In this document: piece after piece, positions 46,412-53,005 of the stretch
Numbering within the stretch: position 1 is the first letter of the stretch
Layout of the letters: every line of letters starts with the position of its first letter
Assembly: GCA_903906365.1 (NCBI GenBank)
Contig: CAIVKC010000034.1
Location: 1 to 64,000 of the forward strand
DNA: 64,000 nt
Reading direction: 5' to 3'
Origin: an uncultured Bacteroidota bacterium
GTDB lineage: Bacteria > Bacteroidota > Bacteroidia > Chitinophagales > Chitinophagaceae
Program-made: the position numbers and the translations under genes
Notes under the pieces: model-generated
Database searches by the model: none
What the model was told of the DNA's origin: nothing
Seen by the model: the letters and a program-made list of their open reading frames with translations, nothing else

Positions 46412-49400
46412 TTACATATTCCTCCTGTACTGGCCGCCTACCTGGTACAAAGCCTGGGTGATCTGGCCCAGGGAGCAGTATTTCACTGCTTCCATGAGTC
46501 CGGCAAAGAGGTTGGATCCCTCCACGGCCGCTTCCTGGAGTTTCCGGAGCGCTTCGGGTGCTTTGTCCTCATTTCTTTTCCAGAAGGCCTGCAGGTTATG
46601 AATCTGCTGGGATTTCTCCTCGGTGGTACTCCTGATCACTTCCCCGGGAAGCACGGTGGGACTTCCTTTTTTGTTGAGAAAGGTATTGACCCCTACGATG
46701 GGCAGTTCCCCGCTGTGTTTGAGACTTTCGTAGTGAAGACTTTCTTCCTGTATTTTATTTCGCTGGTACATCCGCTCCATGGCACCCAATACCCCCCCGC
46801 GTTCGTTGATGCGGTCAAACTCCTTCATAACGGCTTCTTCCACCAGGTCTGTCAATTCCTCAATGACAAAGCTGCCCTGCAGGGAATTTTCTGTGGTGGC
46901 GCTGCCCAACTCCCGGTTGATGATCAGCTGTATGGCCATGGCACGCCGCACACTTTCCTCCGTGGGGGTTGTGATGGCCTCGTCATAGGCATTGGTGTGC
47001 AGGGAATTGCAGTTGTCGTAAATGGCATAGAGCGCCTGCAGGGTGGTGCGGATATCATTGAAATCGATCTCCTGGGCATGCAGACTGCGTCCGCTGGTCT
47101 GGATATGGTATTTTAGTTTCTGGGAGCGGCTGTTCCCTTTGTATTTGAGTTTAATGGCTTTGGCCCAAATCCGGCGGGCGACCCGGCCGATCACGCTGTA
47201 CTCGGGATCCATTCCATTGCTGAAGAAAAAGGAAAGGCTGGGCGCAAAATCGTCGATATGCATACCCCGGCTTAAATAATATTCGACGTAGGTAAACCCG
47301 TTGGATAGGGTAAAGGCAAGCTGTGTTACGGGATTGGCGCCCGCCTCGGCAATATGATAGCCGCTGATGCTCACGCTGTAAAAATTGCGCACCTTATTTT
47401 CTATGAAATAGGCCTGTACATCCCCCATAAGTTTGAGGGCAAATTCGGTGGAAAAAATGCAGGTGTTTTGAGCCTGGTCTTCCTTCAGTATATCGGCCTG
47501 GACGGTCCCCCTCACCTCGGAAAGGGTCTCCGCCTTGATTTTTTCGTAGATCTCGGGGCCCAGTACTTCCTCCCCGCTGATGCCCAGCAAAGCCAGACCG
47601 AGTCCGTCGTTGCCCTCCGGAAGTCTTTCGGGGGAAGCCGGGTTGTAATAAATGGGTTGCCCCGCTTTTTTGAATTTGTGCCGGATATATTCATCTACCT
47701 GCTCCCGGAGGCCGTGCGTGTGGATGTATTTTTCACATTGCTGGTCAATGGCTGCATGCATAAAAAGGGCCAGCAGCATGGGAGCCGGGCCGTTGATGGT
47801 CATACTCACAGAGGTTCTCGGGTCGCAGAGGTCAAATCCGCTGTAGAGCTTTTTGGCATCATCCAGGGTGGCGATGCTCACCCCCGAATTGCCCACCTTC
47901 CCGAATATATCAGGGCGGTAGGCCGGATCCTCTCCATAGAGGGTTACTGAATCAAAGGCCGTTGAAAGCCGCTTGGCTGGCTGGCCCAGGGACACATAGT
48001 GAAAGCGCTTATTGGTACGCTCCGGTCCCCCTTCACCGGCGAACATGCGGGTGGGGTCTTCTTCGGACCTTTTCAGCGGAAATACCCCGGCGGTAAAGGG
48101 AAATTTGCCCGGGAAATTTTCCTGGAGTCTCCAGTGGAGGATATCCCCCCAGTCCTTAAACCGGGGTATGGCAATTTTGGGTATGCGGGTACCGGAGAGG
48201 GAGGCGGTAAACAGGGGCTGCTCAATGATCTTTCCCCGTACATCGTACCGGAAGCATTCTTTTTGATAGGCGGCCTTTGTTTGAGTCCATTCCTGGATAA
48301 GTTTCATACATACCGGGTAGAGCTGCTTTTGCGTTTTTTCCTGCATGGCTTTGAGCACTTGCGCAGCGGGAGAACCAGCCGGTAGGGAAGAGAGCACCCC
48401 TTCAATCTGGTAGAGGCTGGAGGCGAGCCCGGCCTGCTGGGTTGCCTGTTCGTTATAATGGCGCACTGTGTGGGAGATCTCCGCCAGGTACCGTGTCCTG
48501 GCCGCGGGAATGATTTGCGGAGAGGCTGCCCCACCTAAGGAAAGCCGCTCCAGGCTGCCAAAGGAAACCCCGCATTTTGACTCGATGGTGCTGATGATCT
48601 GAATGAATAAATGATTGATCCCTGCATCATTGAACTGGGAGGCAATGGTGCCGATAACAGGCAACTCTTCCTCCTTTGCGGACCAGCGCTGGTGGTTGCG
48701 CTGGTATTGTTTTCTGACGTCATGCAGGGCATCCAGGCCGCCTGGTTTATCAAATTTATTGACGGCGATGAGATCCGCATAATCAAGCATATTTATTTTT
48801 TCGAGCTGAGAGGCTGCTCCGTATTCGGGAGTCATGACATAGAGACTGATGTCACAAAAATCCAGGATCGAGGCATCGCTTTGTCCCACCCCGGCAGATT
48901 CCAGGATGATCAGATCATAACCGGCCCTTTTGCAAATATTGATGGCGTCCCGTGCATATTCGCTTAAGGCCCGGTCGCTTTCCCGGGTGGCCAGGGAGCG
49001 CATATAGGACCTGGGACCCGCGATGGCATTCATGCGAATCCGGTCGCCGAGCAGCGCACCGCCGGATTTTTTCTTGGAAGGATCCACCGAAATGACGGCC
49101 ACGGTTTTTTCCCGGTAGCCATTGAGGAAACGCCGGACGATCTCATCGGTGACCGAACTCTTGCCGGCCCCGCCCGTGCCGGTAATACCCAGCACGGCTC
49201 CTTGCCAGTTTCGGTTTTCCTTAAAGGAGGGTCCCTGTAAAACCGGTTCCGGGTCTTCCCCGCCTTCTGCCAGGGTGATGGCCCGGGCGATGCGCCGTAC
49301 ATCCTTGTACTCGCCCATGGGCATCTTCCCGTTCCATAAGGCGGGGGCATCCCAGAAAGGGCAGGCCGCCTGGCCGGACTTATGTTTTAGGGAAGGCAGC

Positions 49401-49828
49401 GAGGGTACGCGGCAAAGGGACAGCAGGTCTTCGATCATGCCTTCCAGCCCCATTTTTCTGCCATCGTCCGGGCTATAGATGCGGGTTATCCCATATTGAT
49501 GCAATTCGCTGATTTCCTGTGGAAGGATCGTGCCGCCCCCGCCGCCAAAGATCCGGATATGGCCGCAGCTGTTTTCATCCAGGAGGTCCTTGATGTATTT
49601 GAAAAATTCCAGGTGTCCGCCCTGGTAGGATGTGATGGCTATCCCATGGGCATCCTCTTCAATGGCGCATTCCACGATGTCAGCCACGGACCGGTTATGA
49701 CCCAGGTGAATGATTTCGGCCCCCTTGGACTGCAGGATCCTGCGCATGATGTTGATGGCGGCATCATGTCCGTCAAAGAGACTGGCAGCCGTTACGATCC
49801 GGATTTTTTGTGCTGTGGTATCATGCAT
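46412..49828 (-). CDS. icmF: Fused isobutyryl-CoA mutase (B12 domain - MeaB-like GTPase - mutase)
   Basis: [18 protein letters not shown]...[26 protein letters not shown]; large mutase domain; 1138 aa. Confidence 0.95.
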
Positions 49829-49897
49829 AAATGGCAGGCATTGGAGGATGGGGACAAATTTATAGTAAAAAACTAATGACTGTTAGTTTCGTTCCAT

Positions 49898-49924
49898 GGC
49901 ATTCACATATAAACAAGGTACAAG
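49898..49924 (+). repeat. Left terminal inverted repeat of the IS1595 element
   Basis: See element; flanked outside by TSD CGTTCCAT. Confidence 0.88.
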
Positions 49925-49927
49925 ATA

Positions 49928-50050
49928 GTGGACTTAATAAAAACAGTAGAAATAAAAGTAAAATGCCTTGAAATTGCGGTTGCTGTAAATGCATCCGATG
50001 TCAAGGCATTTGCAATTGATTTGTTTGAGTGGGTTGCTAAGCTGGCTTAA
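49928..50050 (+). CDS. Small passenger ORF (40 aa, GTG start)
   Basis: VDLIKTVEIKVKCLEIAVAVNASDVKAFAIDLFEWVAKLA; not in ORF track (too short); overlaps the opposite-strand YodC-like gene tail-to-tail by 14 nt. Confidence 0.4.
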   Translation: MDLIKTVEIKVKCLEIAVAVNASDVKAFAIDLFEWVAKLA

Positions 50051-50210
50051 AACATTCTGCTGGTTGAGAAATTCTTACAAACATTGCGGTTAAACGATTA
50101 AAGTAAATACATTCTAAAGTTTTACCATCGTTAACAATTGCTGCTACAACCATGTGTAGTCCGAGTTCTGATTTAATAACAACTTCGTCGCCTACTTTAA
50201 AATTTGACAT
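50037..50210 (-). CDS. Small DUF2158/YodC-like protein
   Basis: MSNFKVGDEVVIKSELGLHMVVAAIVNDGKTLECIYFN...ECFKPA resembles the KVGDxVxLKSGGPxMxV...CxWF pattern; start at 50210 preferred over 50231. Confidence 0.65.
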   Translation of the reverse strand: MSNFKVGDEVVIKSELGLHMVVAAIVNDGKTLECIYFNRLTAMFVRISQPAECFKPA

Positions 50211-50370
50211 ATACATTAATTTGTAAAGCAATAGCCTAATCTGTTACGGGACGGGGCTTTTTGCTTTGGTTACGGAATACTCAAATTTACCATTATTTCA
50301 CAAATCAAATCTCTTTTATACATTTGGACGTTAAAACATATTAGCGTTTAGCTATTTTCTGTTGAGATAA

Positions 50371-50464
50371 AACTGGTAATTTTTTCACAACCGCAGGAAT
50401 AGGCAAGAACGCTCACGCTAATGGCGTGGGCTTTTGTCATTCTGGGTTGTAGGACTTACCAGTT
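50371..50464. ncRNA. Candidate structured RNA (long imperfect hairpin) in IS1595 passenger region
   Basis: Nested pairings: AACTGGTAA/TTACCAGTT, ACAACC/GGTTGT, CAG-AAT/ATTCTG, CAA/TTG, AA/TT, GC/GC, CACGC/GCGTG with loop TAATG. Confidence 0.45.
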
Positions 50465-50546
50465 CCTTTCTCACAGTCTGGCTTATAGTCCCACGCTATT
50501 TTTATTTTATTATGCTTCAGGGATTAAAGCGTTCAAATAAAATTTT

Positions 50547-50960
50547 ATGAAACTGGTTGTTTGTTGTTTAATATTATTTAGTGGGCTAACAGTTAGCGCA
50601 CAGGATAAAATGATTTATAAATACAGGGCTTTTGAATCTTTATTTTACGATCCTCAATCTCATGTTAATTTAAATAGTGCAACATGGAATAAGACTAATA
50701 TATTGGTAACTGTGGATTTGAATAAACAGCGTATAACAGTATATGCGGCGGCTGAACAAGAAATAGATTTAATTGGTAATCTTCCAGATAAAACAAGTGA
50801 TGACGCTTCGTGGATTAGGAAGGTAGGAGTTGATCAAGATGGCGTAAAATGCAATGTAGAAGTACAATTTTTTAAAAATATAGTAGATGAGCATATTTGC
50901 ACTTTGTATTTAGAATACAAAGACTTTCATTATCTGTATAGATTAAAATCTAACGATTAG
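50547..50960 (+). CDS. Hypothetical secreted passenger protein
   Basis: 137 aa with signal peptide MKLVVCCLILFSGLTVSAQ; no family recognised. Confidence 0.7.
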   Translation: MKLVVCCLILFSGLTVSAQDKMIYKYRAFESLFYDPQSHVNLNSATWNKTNILVTVDLNKQRITVYAAAEQEIDLIGNLPDKTSDDASWIRKVGVDQDGVKCNVEVQFFKNIVDEHICTLYLEYKDFHYLYRLKSND

Positions 50961-51090
50961 TTTTCTTTTTATTTTTTGGCGGTTGATTTACTAATTTGCC
51001 AATAGCATTTTCAAAGGTCATATCTACCTTAAACTTCTTATCGTATTTATTAATTTTCTTGGTTGCCGATTTCTTTGATTTCTTTTCCAT
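50950..51090 (-). CDS. Small basic passenger ORF (46 aa), overlaps transposase 3' end
   Basis: MEKKSKKSATKKINKYDKKFKVDMTFENAIGKLVNQPPKNKKKTNR; ATG lies inside the transposase C-terminal codons; not in ORF track. Confidence 0.6.
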   Translation of the reverse strand: MEKKSKKSATKKINKYDKKFKVDMTFENAIGKLVNQPPKNKKKTNR

Positions 51091-52024
51091 AACTATTTAA
51101 AGTTAGGGAATTATTTAAAAGTGTATTGTATTTAAGTCTGCCTTGACAGTTTTGTAATGCAATTGTAAAGCGTTCGCTATCTTTTATTTTCCTACTATTA
51201 AACCGATAAGCCATTTCATCACAATAGCGTTGCAGGTGCTTAGAACTAACTTGGTGATATATTCCATAAACAGAACGTTTAAGCTGGCTCCAAAAGTTTT
51301 CTATTGAATTAGTATGAAATCCATCTACTTTAAATTCACCTTTCAAGTGGTTAACTGCAACATGCTTTTTAAAATGTTTTGCTCCTATTGTTTTGTACAT
51401 TTTAAAAGCATCAGTAACAAGTGTTGCATCCTTATCAATATGTTTTAACATTAATGATTCTGCGTTACGTTTATTCATCCATTTGGATGCCTGAACAACA
51501 ACTTTGCCGCCTTGTTCAATAATACCAAATACAGGTGTTTTACGCTGGTTCATTTGTGCTTTTGTTTTGCTCTTTTTACCCTTGTGCATGTTTGATTCAG
51601 TTCCCCCGAAAAACCCTTCATCCATTTGTACAATGTTCTTTAATCTAACAGGCATTTTAGCTCTCACACCTTCTCTTATTCTATGTAGCATAAACCACGC
51701 TGTTTTCTGTGTTACGCCCAAATCACGCGCTAATTGACAAGATGAAATTCCTTTCTTATGTGCAGTATTAAGATAAACAGCGATAAGCCATTTATTGAGT
51801 GGTATTTTGCTTGCTTCAAATATTGTTCCTACCAAAACAGTAAAGCGTTTATAACAAGTTTTAGAAGCGCATTTATAGCGTTCATTATTTTCAATGATAT
51901 AGCATTTACCATGTCCGCAATAAGGGCAAGTAATACCATTCTGCCAGCGTTGTTGTTCTAAGAATTTTTTACAGCTCTTTGCATCTGGCATACTGGTAAT
52001 TAATTCTTGTAAGTTCTTAAACAT
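51050..52024 (-). CDS. IS1595 family transposase (DDE, N-terminal zinc ribbon)
   Basis: CPYCGHGKCYIIENNERYKCASKTCYKRFTVLVGTIFEASKIPL; QMDEGFFGG; LVTDAFKMY; HTNSIENFWSQLKRSVYGIYH. Confidence 0.95.
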   Translation of the reverse strand: MFKNLQELITSMPDAKSCKKFLEQQRWQNGITCPYCGHGKCYIIENNERYKCASKTCYKRFTVLVGTIFEASKIPLNKWLIAVYLNTAHKKGISSCQLARDLGVTQKTAWFMLHRIREGVRAKMPVRLKNIVQMDEGFFGGTESNMHKGKKSKTKAQMNQRKTPVFGIIEQGGKVVVQASKWMNKRNAESLMLKHIDKDATLVTDAFKMYKTIGAKHFKKHVAVNHLKGEFKVDGFHTNSIENFWSQLKRSVYGIYHQVSSKHLQRYCDEMAYRFNSRKIKDSERFTIALQNCQGRLKYNTLLNNSLTLNSYGKEIKEIGNQEN

Positions 52025-52079
52025 AATTGGTTAATTTTATTTGTTTCAAAACAACTTAGTAGATAAAAAATATATAGTT

Positions 52080-52346
52080 ATGAAAAGCGAAGAATACGAC
52101 ATTGATATAATTACGAAATGGGTATTTGCATATTATGCAGGATATGAACGTTACATGCAAAAGCATCATTTGAAATTGTATAATCATTTCTATATGAATA
52201 TTCATCCGCCTCAAAAAATTGGTGGTGGTATTGGTATTATGCAAGGGAAAATACATAGTGATGAAGATTATAAAGAGATAATGAGAATTACGAATGAGTT
52301 TTGTAATCAGTATGAGAATCCAATAAACTTTCCAAAGGAGTTTTAA
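52080..52346 (+). CDS. Hypothetical passenger protein
   Basis: 88-aa ORF MKSEEYDIDIITKWVFAYYAGYERYMQKHHLKL...; internal ATG preferred over listed 52041. Confidence 0.5.
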   Translation: MKSEEYDIDIITKWVFAYYAGYERYMQKHHLKLYNHFYMNIHPPQKIGGGIGIMQGKIHSDEDYKEIMRITNEFCNQYENPINFPKEF

Positions 52347-52542
52347 AGAATGGCTGAACATATTGTATTGCAGCAAGCAAACAATATTTGGTTGTTATCA
52401 TTATCTTTTCTTCGTCATTAATTGAGTAACGAATGTTTACAAGTGAGGTATTGCAAACAATATCAACAATATGAGCATTTTTAAACTCAATTAATAAATC
52501 TTCAAACCTTGTACATTCTTTAGATATAGTTGCCCGTTCCAT
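52288..52542 (-). CDS. Hypothetical passenger ORF whose ATG lies in the target-site duplication
   Basis: MERATISKECTRFEDLLIEFKNAHIVDIVCNTSLVNIRYSINDEEKIMITTKYCLLAAIQYVQPFF...; CAT at 52540-52542 is the end of TSD CGTTCCAT. Confidence 0.4.
   Translation of the reverse strand: MERATISKECTRFEDLLIEFKNAHIVDIVCNTSLVNIRYSINDEEKIMITTKYCLLAAIQYVQPFFKTPLESLLDSHTDYKTHS
52508..52534 (-). repeat. Right terminal inverted repeat of the IS1595 element
   Basis: See element; flanked outside by TSD CGTTCCAT. Confidence 0.88.
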
Positions 52543-52666: not shown

Positions 52667-53005
52667 ATGAAAAGGTATTGCCTTGCCCTGGATCTCAAAG
52701 ATGATCCCGCCCTCATTGAAGAATATGAATCCATTCACCGCCAGGTATGGCCTGAAAATATCAAAGGCATCCTGGATGCCGGTATAACCGTGATGGATAT
52801 CTACCGAACGGGTAACCGGCTGTTTATGATTATGGAAGTGGATGAGACTTTTTCCTTTGAAAAGAAAGCCGCCGCCGATTCCGCCAATGCTTCGGTTCAG
52901 CAGTGGGAGGAATTAATGTGGAAATTCCAGCAGCCCCTGCCCTGGGCCCGGCCCGGTGAAAAATGGGTGGTGATGGAACAGATCTTTTCCCTTCCCCATG
53001 AATAG
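52667..53005 (+). CDS. L-rhamnose mutarotase
   Basis: MKRYCLALDLKDDPALIEEYESIHRQVWPENIKGILDAGITVMDIYRTGNRLFMIMEV, family signature; ATG at 52667. Confidence 0.9.
   Translation: MKRYCLALDLKDDPALIEEYESIHRQVWPENIKGILDAGITVMDIYRTGNRLFMIMEVDETFSFEKKAAADSANASVQQWEELMWKFQQPLPWARPGEKWVVMEQIFSLPHE

Follow-up and report, generated by a model that had tools for sequence, protein, structure and literature searches.

A branch of the IS1595 transposon family appears to home on putative repressor-operator DNA

Between a host gene for a fused isobutyryl-CoA mutase (icmF, 46412..49828, minus strand; NF045497, 1724 bits) and one for an L-rhamnose mutarotase (rhaM, 52667..53005, plus strand; PF05336, E = 1.4e-30), the window (the whole 64,000-nt stretch of DNA that was analysed) carries a transposon whose left edge lies a few bases from a palindrome. 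Does this position reflect chance, or a choice made by the element? The element itself measures 2637 bp (49898-52534) and lies between two exact copies of an 8-bp target site duplication (TSD), CGTTCCAT, at 49890..49897 and 52535..52542. The first-pass annotation had taken these direct repeats as the borders of a 2637-bp block; they are plain in the sequence, and an unbiased search for TSDs and terminal inverted repeats (TIRs) around the transposase returned the same pair as its best. That annotation had also described 27-bp imperfect inverted repeats, and a hand count of the left (49898..49924, plus strand) and right (52508..52534, minus strand) ends agreed with it at 20 of 27 matching positions. 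Its identification of an IS1595-type transposase (51050..52024, minus strand; 324 aa, with zinc ribbon, HTH, and DDE domain) was likewise borne out by profiles and alignment. PF12762 (E = 3.6e-36) and NF033547 (E = 7.7e-58) both scored above their cut-offs, as did PF12760 (E = 7.6e-8, 32.6 bits), the zinc ribbon having four invariant Cys; the acidic residues D135, D205, and E242 were invariant among 27 aligned sequences. The 8-bp duplication and the terminal inverted repeats are those of the IS1595 family. To our knowledge, an N-terminal zinc ribbon is found in all groups of this family but IS1016. A Foldseek search with the transposase model revealed no extra DNA-binding domain and returned weak matches to DDE transposases only, the best being ISCth4.

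A search of the 4.66-Mb source genome for other copies, as the annotation had proposed, found the element to be single-copy. Three further IS1595 transposases are encoded there, 41-52% identical to that of the element; for two of them (C13 and C47) the TSD/TIR search found no convincing ends. The annotation had named as contrary evidence element ends lying elsewhere in other copies or in relatives, or the same AT-rich block conserved without a transposase, and neither was seen. What it had overlooked is the site-specificity of the insertion. The left TSD starts 3 nt past an operator-like palindrome, CTAATGACTGTTAG (49873..49886), and this kind of site has been hit recurrently and independently. 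Congeneric genomes (Chitinophagaceae) keep the palindrome, as AACTAATGA[CG]TGTTAGTT, just upstream of icmF, and many of them (e.g. G014, G020, and G026) have it without any insert. Several insert-free congeners have rhaM next after the palindrome, which it adjoins in G014 and G026. The empty site sought in relatives was thus recovered as an icmF operator without insert, but no congeneric genome had the 26-nt empty-site string letter for letter, because the intergenic DNA past the palindrome is not conserved. In the window, the insertion has parted rhaM from the icmF operator and probable promoter, both of which remain intact on the icmF side.

The same palindrome has been struck by other elements. 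Past the icmF palindrome, seven other congeners (G012, G015, G031, G003, G011, G013, and G030) show the end of a different IS1595-like element, and in all seven the TSD keeps the 3-nt spacing. The element of G012 (2369 bp) has a perfect TSD, TTTGGTAT, and so does that of G011 (1968 bp; TTCTGCAG), in which no transposase was found; reading the G031 element from both ends gave a repeat of 9 bp, TTATTGCAA. For G003, G013, G015, and G030 the palindrome-side end alone was found, since several of the elements at this site run to contig ends. The transposases of G031 and G012 are sisters (100/97), yet one is directed toward the palindrome and the other away from it, and the right end of the G012 element resembles the left end of the G031 element; related elements in opposite orientation must be separate insertions. 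Among ten transposases of operator-adjacent elements (class A, below), five point toward the palindrome and five away, so orientation appears to be free. Immediately past the second TSD in G012 (L183 658-3100) lies another element end, which suggests that the icmF site can be re-used. Tandem IS1595 elements were also observed in G326 (L146 2505-9624), with one shared TSD and three copies of CATAGCTT. The tandem elements in these two genomes suggest an absence of target immunity.

The geometry, TTAG followed by three nucleotides and the TSD, recurs at other loci. It was observed at an acyl-CoA dehydrogenase gene in the source genome (C24, TSD TTTTAATA), where the closest other copy in that genome is thus also operator-adjacent; at another acyl-CoA dehydrogenase gene (G342, G329, and MAG contig L223); at a TetR gene (G001 and G024), with a paaE-like reductase gene also beside the G001 site; and at the rdgB operon in G293. 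At a paaA-like gene (L216) the palindrome lies 13 nt from the TIR instead of 11. Insertions were also found at imperfect palindromes before ccmC and before a galactarate-dehydratase-like gene, both outside the putative TetR regulon. Pattern scans with free spacing, in two sets that overlap, placed 4/5 and 7/9 matches at exactly the predicted 11 nt from TTAG to GGCA. When both flanks were measured for 35 elements with defined borders, the spacing of palindrome and TSD came to 3 nt in eight cases, with single cases of 2 nt and of 101 nt. We called class A those elements with a TSD 3 nt outside CTAAN6TTAG, as in the window. An alignment of 16 sites, half of them the same icmF operator, showed strong conservation confined to the palindrome, save for A-runs and the common icmF flank. 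The motif AACTAAN6TTAGTT occurs about 10 times in the source genome, allowing up to one mismatch; unoccupied copies precede a PEP-carboxykinase-like gene and an acyl-CoA dehydrogenase gene, or lie in the gap that separates the rdgB operon from a branched-chain-aminotransferase-like gene (genes named by inspection of their sequences). In G329, a 586-bp non-autonomous element (L176 2336-2921) with a perfect TSD, AAATAATT, lies at the operator of the acyl-CoA dehydrogenase gene and was apparently mobilised in trans.

Target class tracked the tree of the transposases. In a survey of 52 transposases, the ten of class A fell on one side of a single branch with moderate support (70/94; 69% of bootstrap trees), and the transposase of the window grouped with the other operator-adjacent ones. 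When target class was shuffled on the transposase tree, the mean number of changes was 9.3. Class B elements adjoin a dispersed repeat containing GAGTGCGACGCAAC, present in 51-597 copies per genome in five genomes; the genome of the window has none, and the reversed-sequence control gave zero. A conserved coding sequence was ruled out as the source of the class B motif, which is a dispersed repeat. At L135, L138, L142, L143, and L144 (in G090, G035, G037, and G100) elements lie beside a REP-like repeat, GTACAAGAGTGCGACGCAAC, which has 94-597 copies per genome in those four genomes. In class C (L145, L148, L160, L166, L168, and L090) the TSD forms a hairpin loop. Of 35 elements, 6 had flanks that pair around the TSD in a stem scoring ≥7, as compared to about 1% of mismatched flank pairs; G160 has the best of these stems, a perfect one of 20 bp. 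Both B and C are looser groupings than A, class C does not form a clade, and many elements were given no class.

The reading we prefer, with a probability of roughly 0.7, is that the element in the window is a recent insertion of a DDE transposon of the IS1595 family, and that its branch would choose its targets, operator palindromes, strictly and at a fixed distance. It starts from what was observed: a geometry that recurs across several genera and at several operator loci, the independent insertions at one palindrome, and the one-sided clustering of the transposases. The transposase would cut the first strand 3 nt outside TTAG, with a stagger of 8 bp, and once of 9 bp. Its targets would be palindromes of consensus CTAA[CT]NNNTGTTAG. 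These are very probably operators of a TetR-family repressor governing acyl-CoA, branched-chain, and phenylacetate catabolism, to judge from their form, their catabolic neighbours, and the TetR genes adjacent to some of them. A TetR orthologue, 83% identical, is encoded in the source genome, and no such palindrome was found upstream of its own gene. The transposase itself may well read the palindrome, since target class follows the transposase tree, since elements without a visible transposase share the site, and since the two insertions at imperfect palindromes precede genes outside the regulon. Landing just upstream of a regulated promoter, with operator and promoter left intact, would presumably come at low cost to the host.

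These observations might also be read otherwise. That most sites resemble the operators of one regulon, some of them beside TetR genes, is what would be seen if the transposase docked on operator-bound TetR (or another protein), the palindrome being only an indirect mark, and a docked complex would be compatible with the fixed distance as well. We consider such tethering unlikely, if worth keeping in mind: the insertions before ccmC and the galactarate-dehydratase-like gene fall outside the TetR regulon, target class tracks the phylogeny of the transposases, and other lineages insert at repeats or hairpins that have no such factor. Slightly more doubtful still is the extension by which the operator would serve as a homing signal through its bound TetR, so that integration would follow the acyl-CoA metabolic state of the cell. 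Recognition of the promoter or of RNA polymerase, as in TnGBS and ISLre2, would place every class A element in front of a gene, the palindrome lying between them, as observed, and the palindrome spacing would then be constant through overlap; a box resembling TAnnTTTG, tentatively assigned, does lie near the icmF palindrome. Across loci it is the palindrome and not the box that is conserved, and elements are absent from most promoters of the genome, which makes this explanation quite improbable.

Two further explanations do without any choice of site by the present elements, and we give both very little credence. An occupied icmF site common to several species of one genus could descend from a single ancestral insertion, inherited and then diverged. 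Many congeners have no insert, however, and the elements differ in cargo, in the presence of a transposase, and in orientation; the transposase of the window is 51-54% identical to those of G031 and G012, a lower figure than the 60-80% seen for most of the IcmF stretches compared; and unrelated loci carry insertions at the same palindrome. The opposite orientations, the cargo, and the other loci rule this history out. Random insertion followed by survival of those elements that landed upstream of operators draws on the general tolerance of intergenic insertions, but tolerance fails to explain base-pair exactness or a 3-nt spacing at six kinds of locus.

The element resembles the IS1595 family in its zinc-ribbon and DDE_Tnp_IS1595 transposase, its TIRs starting with GG, its 8-bp TSD, and its passengers, passenger genes being known among members of the family (Siguier et al. 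2009, as represented in PMC8101967 and PMC12561309). It differs from the members described in the literature searched in its apparently strict choice of an operator palindrome, a feature not mentioned for them; for ISApl4, for example, only A/T-rich 8-bp duplications are described (PMC12561309). Like the TnGBS/ISLre2/ISKra4 group of prokaryotic Mutator-like elements, which insert 15-17 bp upstream of the -35 box of promoters, regulated or housekeeping, with the sigma-A promoter as mark (PMC3942029), it is a DDE element found a fixed short distance upstream of promoters, sparing the gene. The transposase family is different, all profiles giving IS1595 rather than a Mutator-type (p-MULT) transposase, and the mark is a palindrome 3 nt away. 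Insertion at short palindromic units is shared with the REP-targeting insertion sequences IS1397, ISKpn1, IS621, and ISPpu9/10, which belong to the IS3, IS110, IS4, IS256, and IS5 families and of which IS1397 and ISKpn1 have their target set by the transposase (PMC1525189). Those target many-copy repeats, whereas class A would target a handful of operators per genome, the motif here being no high-copy dispersed repeat; the class B relatives resemble the REP-targeting elements closely. Few simple DDE transposons are strict in their choice of target. The open-access literature searched gave no account of IS1595 elements that target operators nor, as far as we could find, any description of a transcription-factor operator as a transposon target. 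One family with three target modes (operator palindrome, REP-like repeat, and hairpin loop), at roughly 40-55% identity to the transposase of the window, offers a natural series for locating what determines target choice, and a compact transposase of this kind may place cargo beside a defined palindrome of about 14 bp.

The first-pass annotation had called the element a passenger-bearing transposon; this stands, most of the passenger open reading frames (ORFs) being putative genes. From the ORF list, these are an ORF of up to 64 aa (50037..50231, minus strand), one of 137 aa with a signal-peptide-like start (50547..50960, plus), one of 88 aa (52080..52346, plus), and one of up to 84 aa (52288..52542, minus), the start codon of whose longest version falls within the right TSD; none of the four had a match in Pfam or NCBIfam. 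Among the passengers, only a basic 46-aa ORF (50950..51090, minus) has relatives in further IS1595 elements, L085, L143, L146, L154, and L159, and the matches are weak (tblastn, E 0.005-0.03). The element of G208 (L134 7229-8283) bears a pair encoding DUF433 and a PIN-like DUF5615, probably a toxin-antitoxin module.

Directly 5' of the 137-aa ORF lies a structured RNA (50348..50514, plus strand). The structured region noted earlier proved real (MFE -77.1 kcal/mol, z = -7.5), and its nature as a widespread, unnamed RNA had been missed. On an alignment fitted to the model, 91% of cells were paired and the covariation score was 0.408, as compared to 0.146 when shuffled and ≤0.12 when slid. A covariance model located this RNA of about 160 nt (L184-L215 among its loci) in 105 of 249 Chitinophagaceae genomes, with 1-7 copies per genome, and in 63 of 104 genera; it had no match in Rfam, and a large RNA family is thereby brought to light. 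A role as a bridge-RNA-like guide was rejected: the RNA is present in just 3 of 10 class A elements and at many loci where no IS1595 element is in view, and its absence from most class A elements means that it is not needed for targeting. It lies inside IS1595 elements of G208, G048, G001, and G330, and also at many loci with no element in view. Often it is found upstream of small ORFs that are regulator-like or encode secreted proteins.
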